A DNA stretch of 47,847 nt, taken from NCBI RefSeq assembly GCF_002000365.1, contig NZ_MVBK01000048.1:2309-50155 (forward strand), written 5' to 3'. Position numbers and translations under genes: made by a program. The notes beneath the pieces were generated by a model. That model was given only the letters and a program-made list of their open reading frames with translations, did not search any database and was not told the DNA's origin. Positions 16,911 through 47,707 of this stretch are shown in pieces; the first letter of the stretch is position 1, and each line of letters opens with the position of its first letter. The DNA comes from Thioalkalivibrio denitrificans. Its GTDB lineage: Bacteria; Pseudomonadota; Gammaproteobacteria; Ectothiorhodospirales; Ectothiorhodospiraceae.

Positions 16911-17600
16911 TCACTGCGCAGCCCTTTGCGCGGCAGCGGGAATGGGGATATCTTCGACTGACGCCCAAGGGAAAGGCCCGCCATGACGGCAACCGCACAG
17001 GCCGGTGATCACCCCTCGGCCCGTATCGAACGGGCTCAGCACCCCCATCCCGCCGCGATTCAGCACATGGGTATAGATCATCGTCGTGGAGACGCCGGCA
17101 TGCCCCAGGAACCCCGGGACCGTGCGGATGTCCTGCCCGCGCTCAAGCAGATAGGTGGCGAAGCTGTGGCGCAGGGTGTGGCAGCCGACGCGCTTTTGGA
17201 TATAGCAGGCGGCCGCCGCCGCCCGCCTTATCGCCCTCTGCAAGGCGCTTTCGTGGAGATGGCGGCGGCGGATGGCGCCGCACACCATCGACACGGTACG
17301 CCGGCGCTGGGCCCGCACGAAACCCTCCGGCTCGCCCAGCCTCTTTCCAAGAACCTGCTCATAAAGAAAGACCAGGGCTCAGAGCGTCTGATTCCGCGTG
17401 CCGGCGCTGACCCGCTTTTTCACTGCGAGGTGCTCGAGAAACGCCCGCACCTGCGCCGCCGCAGTCTCCTCCGGCAGGCCGTTCGAACAGAACAGCAGAA
17501 AACGGCAGATCCACTGCTCGTAGTTCTGCTCGGTGCGGTAGGCATAACCGCGCCTGCGGATCTCGGAAGTGAGAGGTGCTAGGCATGTGACATCTGCTTA
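16911..17600 (-). pseudogene. intI: Decayed integron integrase (intI)
   Basis: Reading the minus strand gives an N-terminal core-binding region (IRRRGYAYRTEQNYEQWICRF; NGLPEETAAAQVRAFLEHL), then a TGA stop at 17379-17381 where the family reads on into [11 protein letters not shown]. After RAQRRRTV the frame jumps to [17 protein letters not shown], so roughly 130 central residues, including the first catalytic Arg, are deleted. The C-terminus is intact: [31 protein letters not shown] and NRGG, the integron-integrase hallmark. Nonsense and deletion together make it inactive. It points away from the cassettes, as intI genes do. Confidence 0.85.
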
Positions 17601-17639
17601 TCGAGATCACGGGCGTCCTGCCCGAAGAAGCTGGAATGC

Positions 17640-17730
17640 GCGGTTATGCTAAGACGCAGCACTGTTTATTACAGTACGACGCAGCGGTACTATCGCCATT
17701 ACGACCGCCGTCGCCGAAATCACTCTTAGA
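17640..17730 (+). other. attI-like recombination region
   Basis: Adjacent to the 5' end of the intI remnant. It has two direct repeats GACGCAGC (17653-17660, 17678-17685), as attI sites have integrase-binding direct repeats, and ends near a degenerate core CTTAGAGC. The 26-nt block starting GCCATTACGACC (17695 on) recurs with three changes at 23304-23329. No attI has been verified; the position is the main argument. Confidence 0.45.
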
Positions 17731-17836: not shown

Positions 17837-18553
17837 ATGAACGACAAGACCGAACCCCAAGATTCAGCCGAAGCCGAAGCAAATGCGCATGCCTCTCTAG
17901 AGTTCGAGAGGACGAAATACGAGGCGATCCAAGAGAAGGAAGATCGCGAATATCAACTGCGCCTTCGCGAACTTGAGCTACGAGAACGCGAAGCAAATCG
18001 GTCTCAATTGAAGAATCCACTCGTGTTAGCGATCGTCGCGGCCACACTAGCAGCAATAGGCAACGGCGTAGTTGCGTGGGTCAATGCGGATAATCAGAGA
18101 AAAGTCGAGGAGAATAGAGAATCGCTTAGCAAGGAGCTCGAATCGAGGCGAGTCGAATCCTTGGCGATGCTTGAAGTACTAAAATCAGAAGCGCCATGTG
18201 ATGGTGTTAGTAAGCTTCAAGTTGCATTAGATATTGGCTTGGTATCCGACTCAAACCGCCAAGCGGAATTACGGCAATTTCTTTCGGCTTCGTCAGATTC
18301 CAATCAGTGTCCGCAGGCCACAGTAGATTCGAAGCCAATTGTCGCGCCCGTCGAGCCGATCACAGTAAGTCTGAGCACCGGCTGGCTCGGTGGTGGCCAC
18401 AATCAACTACAGCAATGTCGAATCTTACGGAGTGCGGTTGAGTCGGAATATCCCGACAGAACGATTCTCTTGGTAGGGTCATCAGAGGAAAGCAAAAAGG
18501 ACTTCTTAGGGCGGGTGGAGTACAAGTATTTCTGCACATTCGAGGTGCAATGA
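17837..18553 (+). CDS. Coiled-coil membrane protein in first integron cassette
   Basis: 238 residues. An N-terminal charged coiled coil (EKEDREYQLRLRELELRERE, ~30-55) leads into one hydrophobic segment (NPLVLAIVAATLAAIGNGVVAW, ~60-81), then a second helical stretch and a C-terminal domain with CRILRSAVESEYP. Single-pass inner-membrane topology is likely. No family recognised. It lies between the attI-like region and a clear attC, so it is the first cassette gene. Codon and base composition are more AT-rich than the upstream chromosome. Confidence 0.65.
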   Translation: MNDKTEPQDSAEAEANAHASLEFERTKYEAIQEKEDREYQLRLRELELREREANRSQLKNPLVLAIVAATLAAIGNGVVAWVNADNQRKVEENRESLSKELESRRVESLAMLEVLKSEAPCDGVSKLQVALDIGLVSDSNRQAELRQFLSASSDSNQCPQATVDSKPIVAPVEPITVSLSTGWLGGGHNQLQQCRILRSAVESEYPDRTILLVGSSEESKKDFLGRVEYKYFCTFEVQ

Positions 18554-18613: not shown

Positions 18614-18691
18614 CTCTAACAATCGCATGTAATCGGACGCATCGCTGCTCGCTTCGCTCACCACGGCGCGCCGCTGATGCGAGACGTTAGC
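18614..18691 (+). other. attC site of the first cassette, interrupted by a group II intron
   Basis: R''-like CTCTAAC (18614-18620) then TCGCATG; on the right ATGCGAGAC and GTTA (18686-18689). TCTAAC..TCGCAT folds back on ATGCGA..GTTA, the imperfect hairpin typical of attC. Joining across the intron restores GTTAGGC, a perfect R' box. Confidence 0.8.
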
Positions 18692-19364
18692 GCGCCCCGC
18701 AAAGCGTGGCGCATCTGGTCGGGTGAGAGTCCCGACATGGTAAGGGTTAACCACCCACCATTACCGAGTGTTGCGCCTCTGGCGGAACGGTGCCTTGGTC
18801 GTGAAGATTGGGGCGTGCGTGAACAAGAGAGGTGAAGCGAACATAGGGTATGTTGCAGGCGGTTTGGAGACCTAGCTCCTTAGATGGAATCGCTTCGAAA
18901 TGAACAGTCCCGGTTGGCCAGCGTTGTAACTTGCGTGAAGCCCATACGAAGCAAGCGCATTGGTTAGCCTGTAGCGAGCCGGCGGAGTTCTCAATCTGCG
19001 GCACGTAACAAGAGATGCGTGATGAACGCGGGAGGCTCCGTGGGCTCCAAGGGAAGGGTAAAGCACATGCGGACCGCTACAAACGGGATGAAGGCCGATG
19101 GGGAGTCGGATCATCTCATAGTACTCGGAGACGGTAGGGCCGATCACATGGGGACGGGGATGACGGTCATGCGTAACTTGCAAAGACAACTCGCGCCGGA
19201 CAATGTAGGGCCGGAGCTCGACGAGCCAACCTCCTCGCAGGGGCTATCTATGAGCAGTATTGCTGCTTCTACGAATGTGAGCATGATTGAGGAGCCCGGT
19301 GCGGGAAAACTGCACGCCGGGATCTGTGCAGGGGGCGCCGGCTAACCGGCGTCCCTACTGCGAC
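18690..19364 (+). ncRNA. ORF-less group II intron (class C-attC-like)
   Basis: Domain V is recognisable at 19292-19324: it starts GAGCCCGGTGC, has a GAAA-type loop and returns as GCACGCCGGGATC, with the AGC triad and a 2-nt bulge. Domain VI follows: GCAGGGGGCGCCGG, loop CTAA, CCGGCGTCCCTACTGC with a bulged A. The 5' end GCGCG differs by one base from the GUGYG consensus. The ends are set by the R' box: GTTA before and GGCC after give GTTAGGC. At 675 nt there is no room for a reverse transcriptase, and no such frame exists. Class C-attC introns are known to target attC sites. It depends on a protein in trans or is dead. Confidence 0.75.
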
Positions 19365-19416
19365 GGCCATATGCCGCAGGCACAATCAATAGAAGCAAGA
19401 AGTAGGGGTTGTGGAT

Positions 19417-20286
19417 ATGTCCGCAAGACAACTGCCGATTGAACACGCGCTGGTCCGATCGACGGTCCGATTGCTTGCTGGGCCAGCGTCCGGTGACCCC
19501 ACTTCGGTGGGAACTGGATTCTTCTACAAGGTCGTCCACCCGCAGAAGGATATCGCCAAGATCCTTATTGTCACGAACAAGCATGTTGTTCGCGGCGCCG
19601 ATGTTGTTCACTTTGTTCTTTCGTCTGCACTATCCGTCCGCGCACTTGATGAACAGCACCAGCCAAGGGGACACAAGGACCAGAAGTTCATGCTGCCACT
19701 GAACGGAAACACATACCTGCATCCTAATCCAAACATCGACCTCTGTGCAATTGACGTCACGATCCCTGTTGGCCAGGTTCTTCAGACGGGCGCCCAGCTC
19801 CGCTCAATGTTCATCGACTCCAGTTGGCTACCAGAACCTGAGGCTAGGCCGATCATTCGCGACGTGGAGCAGGTGCTTGTAGTCGGGTATCCAAGAGGGC
19901 TGTGGGACAGCCACAACAACATGCCCATTGCTCGGCTAGGTATTACCGCAACTCATCCGCTCGCCCACTACCAAAACAAGCGTGAGTTTCTCGTCGATGT
20001 CGCGGCTTTTCCGGGATCTAGCGGCTCGCCGGTCTTCACCTATGAGGCTCCGATGTTTCGGCAGGGGGATGGCGCATATACGCCTGGCACTAAGGTTCAG
20101 TTCGTTGGGGTCGTGTGGGGCGTGGTCGAATGGAACGTAGAGGGAGAGCTAAAGGTGGTGGAGATTCCGTCCGCCCTTAAACAGGTGCCTGTGGTCAGCT
20201 CGTCGCTTAGCCTTGCCATCGCGCTGCATGCCGATGCAACTTTGGAACTAGACGCGCAATTCTTCCCGGACCGCCGGGACGTGTAG
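19417..20286 (+). CDS. Trypsin-like serine protease in integron cassette
   Basis: 289 residues. The trypsin-fold triad can be read: His in VTNKHVV (~55), Asp in NIDLCAIDV (~110), Ser in FPGSSGSPVF (~200, G-S-S-G-S). VGTGFFY before the His motif is typical of the fold. There is no signal peptide, so a cytoplasmic protease is likely, as in several defence-associated trypsin-like proteases. ATG 19417 is preferred over GTG 19411 because AGGGG lies 8 nt upstream. The gene directly follows the intron-interrupted attC, a normal cassette position. Confidence 0.8.
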   Translation: MSARQLPIEHALVRSTVRLLAGPASGDPTSVGTGFFYKVVHPQKDIAKILIVTNKHVVRGADVVHFVLSSALSVRALDEQHQPRGHKDQKFMLPLNGNTYLHPNPNIDLCAIDVTIPVGQVLQTGAQLRSMFIDSSWLPEPEARPIIRDVEQVLVVGYPRGLWDSHNNMPIARLGITATHPLAHYQNKREFLVDVAAFPGSSGSPVFTYEAPMFRQGDGAYTPGTKVQFVGVVWGVVEWNVEGELKVVEIPSALKQVPVVSSSLSLAIALHADATLELDAQFFPDRRDV

Positions 20287-20825: not shown

Positions 20826-20835
20826 AATGTCACGT

Positions 20836-20894
20836 CATAACCGCGCCATGCAACCAACGCGCATACCTCGCGTAGTAGATTGCAGGCGTTATGT
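20836..20894 (+). other. attC site
   Basis: CATAAC (20837-20842) followed by ATGCAA, and ATTGCAGGC leading to GTTATGT (20888-20894). The two ends fold together as CATAAC..TGCAA with TTGCA..GTTATG. At about 59 bp it matches a short attC. Confidence 0.7.
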
Positions 20895-23299: not shown

Positions 23300-23341
23300 G
23301 TATTGCCATTACGACCACCGTCACCCAAATGAATGTTATAC
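23300..23341 (+). other. attI/attC right half before the SEFIR cassette
   Basis: GCCATTACGACCACCGTCAC and following bases match the attI-like block at 17695 with few changes; it ends at GTTATAC (23335-23341), a good R' box. The SEFIR start codon lies 19 nt further on. Confidence 0.5.
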
Positions 23342-23359
23342 CCATATAGGAATCTCATA

Positions 23360-24796
23360 GTGGCCGCCCCTAAACTCTTCATCTCATATAGCTGGTCAAG
23401 CTCAGAACATGAGCAATGGGTTATCGAGCTCGCAACTAATCTTCGAGAGTCCGGAATTGACGTAATTCTGGATAAATGGGATTTGAAAGAAGGCCATGAT
23501 GCCTACGCGTTTATGGAGCAGATGGTTAGTGATCCCGCCATAGGCAAAGTGGCGATTATTAGCGACAAAACCTACTCGGAAAAAGCCGATGGAAGATCAG
23601 GTGGTGTTGGGACAGAGACGCAGATCATCTCTAAAGAAGTTTACGAGAATCAAAAACAAGACAAGTTTGTCCTGGTTGTTTGTGAGAAAGACACGCACGG
23701 GAAGCCCTACCTCCCCACCTATTACAAGTCACGTATTTACATTGACTTGAGCGAGCCCGACTCATACGCGGAGAACTTCGAAAAGCTGTTGCGATGGGTT
23801 TTTGACAAACCACTGTACCTAAAGCCAGAGATAGGAAAACCTCCTACGTTCTTGACTGATGCCAATTCCATTTCACTTGGCACCACTCCAAGCTTTAAAA
23901 GAGCTATGGATGCAATCAAAAACAATAAAAGACATGCATCTGGAGCAATGGATGAATATTTTGAGACATTTTCACGAAATCTCGAGCGCTTCCGTATTGA
24001 AAGAACCGACAACGCACATGACGAGCTAATCGTAAAAAGTATTGAAGAGTTTCTGCCCTATCGAAATGAAGCAGTGCAACTTTTTATGGCGTTAGCTCAA
24101 TACGCACCGACCGAAGAGAACATTGTAAAGCTTCATAGGTTTCTCGAAGGTTTAATACCGTATATGAGTAGACCGCCAGAAGTTACCCATTATAACGATT
24201 GGGATTTCGATAACTTCAAATTCATTGTTCACGAACTATTTCTTTATGCCTTTTCGATTCTTGTCCGATACGAACGTATCGAGCAAGCAAACTATCTAAT
24301 GCATAACCAATACTACGTCGTTGGAAATAGCTATTATGGTAACGATGTTATGGTGCGCTTTCCGGTTTTTAGAGAATATATTCGTTCTCTTGAGGCGCGT
24401 AACCAACGGCTTAAGTTGCGCCGGCTCTCATTAAGGGCGGATATGCTGGAAGAAAGAAGCAAAAACTCTGGGCTAGAGTTCAGGTACTTAATGCAGGGGG
24501 ATTTTATTTTGTTTATGCGAGCAGAAATTGAAGACGAAGACGGCTATTCCACTTGGTGGCCCGAAACCCTACTTTACCTGTTTAGGTTCCCTTCCAGCTT
24601 CGAGATCTTCGCAAGGGCTGTGTCCGGGAAATATTTTGAAAAGGTTAAGTGCCTTCTAGCTATAGACAAAAAAGAAGATCTTGTCGATTTGCTCTCTAGT
24701 TATAAAGGCGGCAGGCGTCGATTGCCTAGGTGGGAAGGTCGCTCGATCAACCCGCATGACCTTCTTGGCTTCGATCAGATAGCAACTAAACCATAA
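23360..24796 (+). CDS. SEFIR/TIR-like domain protein in integron cassette
   Basis: 478 residues from a GTG with AGGA 9 nt upstream. The N-terminal ~150 residues match SEFIR domains: KLFISYSWSSSEHEQWV, LRESGIDVILDKWDLKEGHD, MVSDPAIGKVAIISDKTY and a late YIDLS strand. The C-terminal ~320 residues are helical and unassigned. SEFIR/TIR-family domains in bacteria often act in antiviral signalling or NAD depletion. Here the gene is the sole occupant of a cassette bounded by R' boxes GTTATAC on both sides. It is clearly more AT-rich than flanking genes, indicating separate origin. Confidence 0.75.
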   Translation: MAAPKLFISYSWSSSEHEQWVIELATNLRESGIDVILDKWDLKEGHDAYAFMEQMVSDPAIGKVAIISDKTYSEKADGRSGGVGTETQIISKEVYENQKQDKFVLVVCEKDTHGKPYLPTYYKSRIYIDLSEPDSYAENFEKLLRWVFDKPLYLKPEIGKPPTFLTDANSISLGTTPSFKRAMDAIKNNKRHASGAMDEYFETFSRNLERFRIERTDNAHDELIVKSIEEFLPYRNEAVQLFMALAQYAPTEENIVKLHRFLEGLIPYMSRPPEVTHYNDWDFDNFKFIVHELFLYAFSILVRYERIEQANYLMHNQYYVVGNSYYGNDVMVRFPVFREYIRSLEARNQRLKLRRLSLRADMLEERSKNSGLEFRYLMQGDFILFMRAEIEDEDGYSTWWPETLLYLFRFPSSFEIFARAVSGKYFEKVKCLLAIDKKEDLVDLLSSYKGGRRRLPRWEGRSINPHDLLGFDQIATKP

Positions 24797-24801
24797 CAAC
24801 G

Positions 24802-24888
24802 GTATAACACTCGCATGCACTCGGCCATCGAAACGCGCCTCTCATACTTCGCTCTGCTTTTTCCGGACGGTGATGCGAAGCGTTATAC
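24802..24888 (+). other. attC site of the SEFIR cassette
   Basis: R'' GTATAAC (24802-24808) and R' GTTATAC (24882-24888) are exact complements. Inner boxes CTCGCATGC and GATGCGAAG pair with an extrahelical base. This is the cleanest attC in the window, 87 bp. Confidence 0.85.
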
Positions 24889-47523: not shown

Positions 47524-47596
47524 TGGGCCGTGTAGGACTCGAACCTACGACCAAGAGATTAAAAGTCTCCTGCTCTACCAACTGAGCTAACGGCCC
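47524..47596 (-). tRNA. tRNA-Lys (anticodon UUU), island-borne replacement
   Basis: 73-nt cloverleaf on the minus strand. Acceptor GGGCCGT pairs with ACGGCCC; the anticodon stem GGAGA/TCTCT carries loop CTTTTAA with anticodon UUU; T-stem GTAGG/CCTAC closes TTCGAGT. The genomic 3' sequence is ACATTT, not CCA, so CCA must be added enzymatically, whereas the interrupted host copy encodes CCA. It lies inside the island, between its recombinase genes and the right junction. Confidence 0.95.
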
Positions 47597-47651
47597 ATAG
47601 CAAACCTATTTTACCGCCACTTCATGCGCACACACATACGACTACAGATAA

Positions 47652-47707
47652 GAACCTACGACCAAGAGATTAAAAGTCTCCTGCTCTACCAACTGAGCTA
47701 ACGACCC
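47652..47707 (-). pseudogene. 5' fragment of host tRNA-Lys (right island junction)
   Basis: The first 56 nt of a tRNA-Lys(UUU): acceptor GGGTCGT, D-arm, the same anticodon arm, variable loop and T-stem up to GTAGGTTC. Then island sequence begins. The acceptor cannot pair locally; its partner ACGACCC is at the left junction. Together the two pieces total 76 nt. Confidence 0.92.

Follow-up and report, generated by a model that had tools for sequence, protein, structure and literature searches.

Introns of the classical IIC-attC type occupy the bottom strand of attC, at TTGT/T, and lie opposite to the cassettes (PMC7923331). One top-strand attC intron is cited in the same paper, in E. cloacae, with no mention of an ORF-less lineage. 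As for bacterial introns without an ORF, these are rare and mostly found beside a relative that bears a reverse transcriptase (RT); they are thought to be uncommon and short-lived, and RT-based surveys can miss them (PMC4424553). In Thermosynechococcus elongatus, 17 ORF-less introns derive from one deletion and are mobilised in trans (PMC2882425). One survey lists 281 introns without an RT out of 2,381, and the term “attC” is absent from its text (PMC8919778).

Here we describe an intron found in a 47,847-nt stretch of DNA from Thioalkalivibrio denitrificans (contig NZ_MVBK01000048.1), called the window below. It is a group II intron, most likely of class IIC, that has lost its ORF and very probably belongs to a non-autonomous lineage which inserts top-strand in the R' box of attC. 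Our search of the literature outside Quiroga and Centron 2009, Leon and Roy 2009 and the E. cloacae paper found no description of this lineage.

Intron structure and boundaries

The intron is 675 nt long, has no ORF and occupies 18690-19364 of the plus strand, wedged between GTTA (18686-18689) and GGC (19365-19367). The junctions read ...GACGTTA(18689)|GCGCGCC...CTGCGAC(19364)|GGCC, and once 18690-19364 is removed the R' box of an attC is obtained, GTTAGGC. The first-pass annotation, which had seen a group II intron without ORF within this very box, was right in both the coordinates and the restored core. The attC belongs to the upstream cassette and extends on the plus strand from 18612 to the GTTA of R' at 18689. 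It is readable directly, with the top-strand attC motif, through the box pairs TAAC/GTTA and TCGCAT/ATGCGA, where R'' ends in CTAAC, the second pair is L''/L' and the 5' exon with IBS1 is (AC)GTTA. The GGC at the other side is the rest of the R' box and begins the 3' exon, with IBS3 = G.

In terms of ribozyme domains, RF02005 matches the core of domains I-IV at 18726-18997 (+) with 85.4 bits (E=1.5e-22), and RF00029 matches domains V-VI at 19290-19364 (+) with 42.3 bits (E=4.4e-5). Both Infernal scores are above the Rfam gathering scores, so that domains V and VI, already called recognisable from the letters, are also detected by covariance model. Domains I-III, supported by the RF02005 match and the consensus fold, are at 18690-19014, domain IV is at 19015-19289 and domains V and VI are at 19290-19364, all on the plus strand. 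The order is the standard one, which rules out a circularly permuted intron. The EBS1 loop, UUGUAACUUGCG, lies at 18924-18935 (+), and its UAAC pairs with the GUUA of IBS1. The intron starts with GCGCG, which is GUGYG-like, and finishes with GCGAC, where the final GAC is AY-like. The deviation from GUGYG at position 2 is the same in all gammaproteobacterial relatives, and the start and end bases are identical to theirs.

Support for the boundaries also comes from outside the window. A search of relatives for an empty site with the window's own flanks gave matches solely in the attI region, and paralogous attCs were used in their place. Copies of one attC type, 86-96% identical to an occupied one, are empty in relatives, and two of them read GTTA|GGC. 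One empty copy runs on into a near-copy of the 3' exon of an occupied site in the same genome (GGCGAAAAA...). Furthermore, a second genome of the same genus (G002) has an ORF-less copy, broken by an insertion, in a RAYT-like transposase gene (L023, 2963-4967, minus strand), and joining the flanks at the same boundaries, by exact removal of the intron, restores the reading frame.

Integron context

On the minus strand, upstream of the intron, there is an intI pseudogene (17025-17579) whose match to TIGR02249 is limited to residues 3-101 and 227-313; it has an in-frame TGA, and an internal deletion has removed approximately residues 102-226. No other match in the genome reaches the integron-integrase cut-off. 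The pseudogene is adjoined by an attI-side region (17601-17729, +) that is conserved upstream of the integron arrays of G002. A cassette ORF of 238 aa without family match (17837-18553, +) precedes the attC, and the next cassette ORF, of 291 aa and with a trypsin-like peptidase domain (PF13365), is at 19411-20286 (+). Cassette ORFs are on the plus strand at both sides and the broken intI, upstream, is on the other strand; the intron therefore has the sense of the cassettes.

When the window was scanned with a strict attC pattern, no site was obtained. The relaxed scan returned mostly noise, with probable attCs at 20835-20894 and 24802-24888. Part of the attI-side region, 38 nt at 17691-17728, recurs (82%) at 23301-23338, about 5.6 kb downstream, where it adjoins an ORF (23333-24796) and the second of these probable attCs. 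Beside an intact tRNA at 47524-47596 there is a partial tRNA copy (33 bits) at 47643-47701 on the minus strand, of the kind that integration of a mobile element into a tRNA gene can leave behind.

The crossover base of G^TTRRRY and the GTTAG are intact 5' of the intron, the R' box now being GTTAGCG versus GTTAGGC. Rather than being blocked by the intron, as the first-pass annotation had expected, cassette recombination could move it together with the downstream cassette.

Loss of the reverse transcriptase

The absence of an RT from the 675 nt is borne out by tblastn with a related RT, which finds solely an N-terminal remnant. The stretch 19070-19258, in domain IV, aligns at 58.7% identity with the RT from an Ectothiorhodospira relative, over residues 33-95 of the latter. 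These residues precede the actual RT domain (168-392 of that protein according to Pfam), and the deletion junction is at about 19265. An in-frame ORF of 108 aa in domain IV (19019-19345) was considered as a gene and rejected: indels of 1 and 8 nt in G002 shift its start region, and it corresponds to the RT remnant. A maturase elsewhere in the genome had been proposed as something to look for, and the PF00078 profile has no match anywhere in this 167-contig draft, from which an RT could be missing. The intron itself is present there in a single copy.

A scan of 84,980 named genomes with the 5' end yielded 36 loci. Where both intron ends could be read, ORF-less forms are approximately as common as RT-bearing ones. 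The RT-bearing members measure 1.94-2.1 kb and encode a group II RT/maturase (TIGR04416, above cut-off), in which no endonuclease domain was found. ORF-less members measure 683 nt in Methylomonas, 714 in Desulfosudis (L055), 761 in a deltaproteobacterial MAG and about 663 in an Escarpia endosymbiont, plus two degenerate ones. A cognate RT gene was found in G002 and in Ectothiorhodospira, and none in the Methylomonas and Desulfosudis genomes, which are MAGs. Matches from a plasmid search were limited to domain V-VI or to the 5' end of other introns.

The same 28-nt stretch spans the deletion in the window, G002, Methylomonas (L047), the Escarpia endosymbiont (L058) and a further gammaproteobacterium (G244, L111), at the place where full-length relatives hold about 1.3 kb of RT. 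One deletion junction is common to these five gammaproteobacterial genomes and, being shared across genera, it points to a single deletion as the founder of a non-autonomous intron lineage. In the ribozyme tree, the ORF-less copies are not all grouped to the exclusion of the Ectothiorhodospira full-length introns, so that copies with and without an RT may have recombined.

At least two other deletion junctions are found at deltaproteobacterial loci. There, L055, L062, L044, L140 and L141 are ORF-less members of their own, some of them strongly shortened (about 270 and 460 nt).

Multiple copies are found in G002, which has three identical 684-nt ORF-less introns at three different attCs, 92% identical to the window intron. 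One of the three lies immediately next to a further family member. Such a tandem would be understandable, since the intron begins with G and GTTA|G would be recreated at the 5' junction. At L021 (4380-8496), an ORF-less intron abuts a second intron that resembles an IS-mediated chimera, made of an ORF-less 5' part, a transposase gene and then a 5'-truncated RT-bearing intron. The only cognate RT found in G002 is in the truncated, IS-associated part of this second intron. Two of the arrays holding ORF-less copies are divergent from integrases above the family cut-off, one intact and one with a stop. The third array, oriented by its attI-side region, has the same polarity, with the intron in cassette sense.

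We consider it improbable that the window copy is a full-length RT intron that lost its ORF in place, with no non-autonomous lineage behind it. Independent truncations do occur in the family, as seen at L043, which was tried as a lineage member and is instead an L048-like RT intron with a deletion of its own, and at L056, whose junction is unlike that of L055. However, the five genomes above agree in length and have homologous sequence across the deletion, and three identical copies at different attCs of G002 cannot be separate local deletions. By this comparison of sequences, independent local ORF loss appears largely refuted by the shared junction.

Target choice and class

The 5' exon ends in GTTR at 39 of the 46 distinct flanks, and in gammaproteobacterial copies the 3' exon almost always begins with G. 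The EBS1 loop is UAACG(C/U) in most of the family, with (C)GTTA as 5' exon. EBS1-IBS1 pairing is UAACGC-GCGUUA in relatives and UAAC-GUUA, 4 bp, in the window. At L044 both partners have changed together (UAGCGG with CCGCTA), a compensatory change.

Of the 46 distinct flanks, 20 contain the top-strand attC motif and none the bottom-strand one; among 400 background GTTA sites, the top-strand motif is present at 23. This strand-specific motif was used instead of helix folding because folding discriminated poorly, with the closing YAAC-GTTR helix obtained at 9/46 flanks versus 35/400 background sites. Since no attC can be recognised at some of the insertion sites, the true requirement is probably a hairpin plus GTTR|G.

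The short IBS1, the hairpin target, the size and an RT without endonuclease domain make class IIC the most likely assignment for the lineage. The label of class C-attC given in the earlier annotation is an interpretation; given the top strand, the cassette sense and the target GTTA/G, the intron is not of the classical IIC-attC type.

Constraint on the ribozyme and decay of the window copy

Between genera, the ribozyme of domains I-III has diverged by 6-12%, versus 21-25% for domain IV, and the RNA has therefore been constrained despite the loss of the protein. The consensus fold, built on 9 relatives, contains 13 compensated pairs. A contrasting picture is seen for the window copy, with 17 derived changes in the ribozyme where G002 has 2 (p=7e-4), six disrupted helix pairs versus one, and an EBS1 without the two bases that extend the pairing elsewhere in the family. 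With these changes, no RT found and the local intI broken, the window copy looks like a fossil, dead or decaying.

Every domain is still recognisable and the intron is in cassette sense, which would also suit a domesticated element, i.e. an ORF-less intron that still works, splicing itself out unaided by protein and so shaping the cassette transcripts. There is a precedent in the ORF-less C.te.I1 of Clostridium tetani, which self-splices with no RT in the genome (PMC4424553). We judge this reading unlikely in view of the accelerated change, the six disrupted pairs and the weakened EBS1. The insertion is, moreover, not common to the relatives searched, and no promoter-like site was found near the intron.

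Mobility of the lineage

The preferred reading is that of a trans-mobilised lineage, whose splicing and mobility we infer. The excised intron RNA would recognise the attC hairpin and GTTA|G and reverse-splice there, while a full-length relative would supply the RT in trans and this RT would copy the intron into DNA. G002 has the features by which trans-mobilisation is recognised, since it shares the deletion and its several copies sit at good EBS/IBS sites. The window copy, in whose genome no RT and no intact local integrase were found, would then be left to decay into a fossil. It is most improbable that integrase-mediated recombination, and not retrohoming, spread the copies along with cassettes: by established integron chemistry an intron 3' of the G^TT crossover would travel as leader of the downstream cassette, yet the downstream sequence is different at every G002 copy and one copy is in a non-integron gene.

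A broader reading has, in our estimate, even chances. The RT-less lineage may be long-lived, specialised on the top-strand R' box of attC and spreading horizontally through Gammaproteobacteria, where it would parasitise RT-bearing introns in the manner of a SINE, and parallel ORF-less lineages would exist in Desulfobacterota. If this is true, the integron is a landing pad for a two-tier retroelement community. In any case, the ORF-less form has lasted without an RT gene, is found in several genera and has multiplied in one of these, and both the attC strand and the core box that it uses differ from those of the textbook IIC-attC introns. This raises the question of how a ribozyme without its own protein gets mobilised at DNA hairpins, and what effect an intron in the R' box has on cassette recombination and on read-through transcripts of the array.

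Comparison with known systems

The IIC-attC introns (S.ma.I2 and relatives) resemble this lineage in the insertion at attC after a hairpin, in the short IBS1 and in an RT without endonuclease domain, seen here in the relatives. They differ in that they bear an RT and use TTGT/T in R'' of the bottom strand, against the cassettes (PMC7923331), whereas the window lineage uses GTTA/G in R' of the top strand, in cassette sense, with the RT deleted. The E. cloacae intron is also in the attC top strand and in cassette orientation; as described by the paper that cites it, it is a single case and is called not IIC-attC.

As for ORF-less introns, C.te.I1 of C. tetani is likewise without an ORF in a genome without related RT (PMC4424553), but it splices alternatively in a surface-layer gene and self-splices, while the window intron is degraded and lies in an integron. 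The TeI3 introns of T. elongatus have one ancestral ORF deletion, ORF remnants and many copies, and are driven in trans by the RT of another intron (PMC2882425), as would be the case for the window lineage. They have non-attC targets in a single genome, in contrast to several genera and an integron site here. Trans-mobilised ORF-less introns were already known from T. elongatus, and what appears to be new, judging from the sequences compared, is the combination of the ORF-less state and trans-mobilisable-type features at attC.
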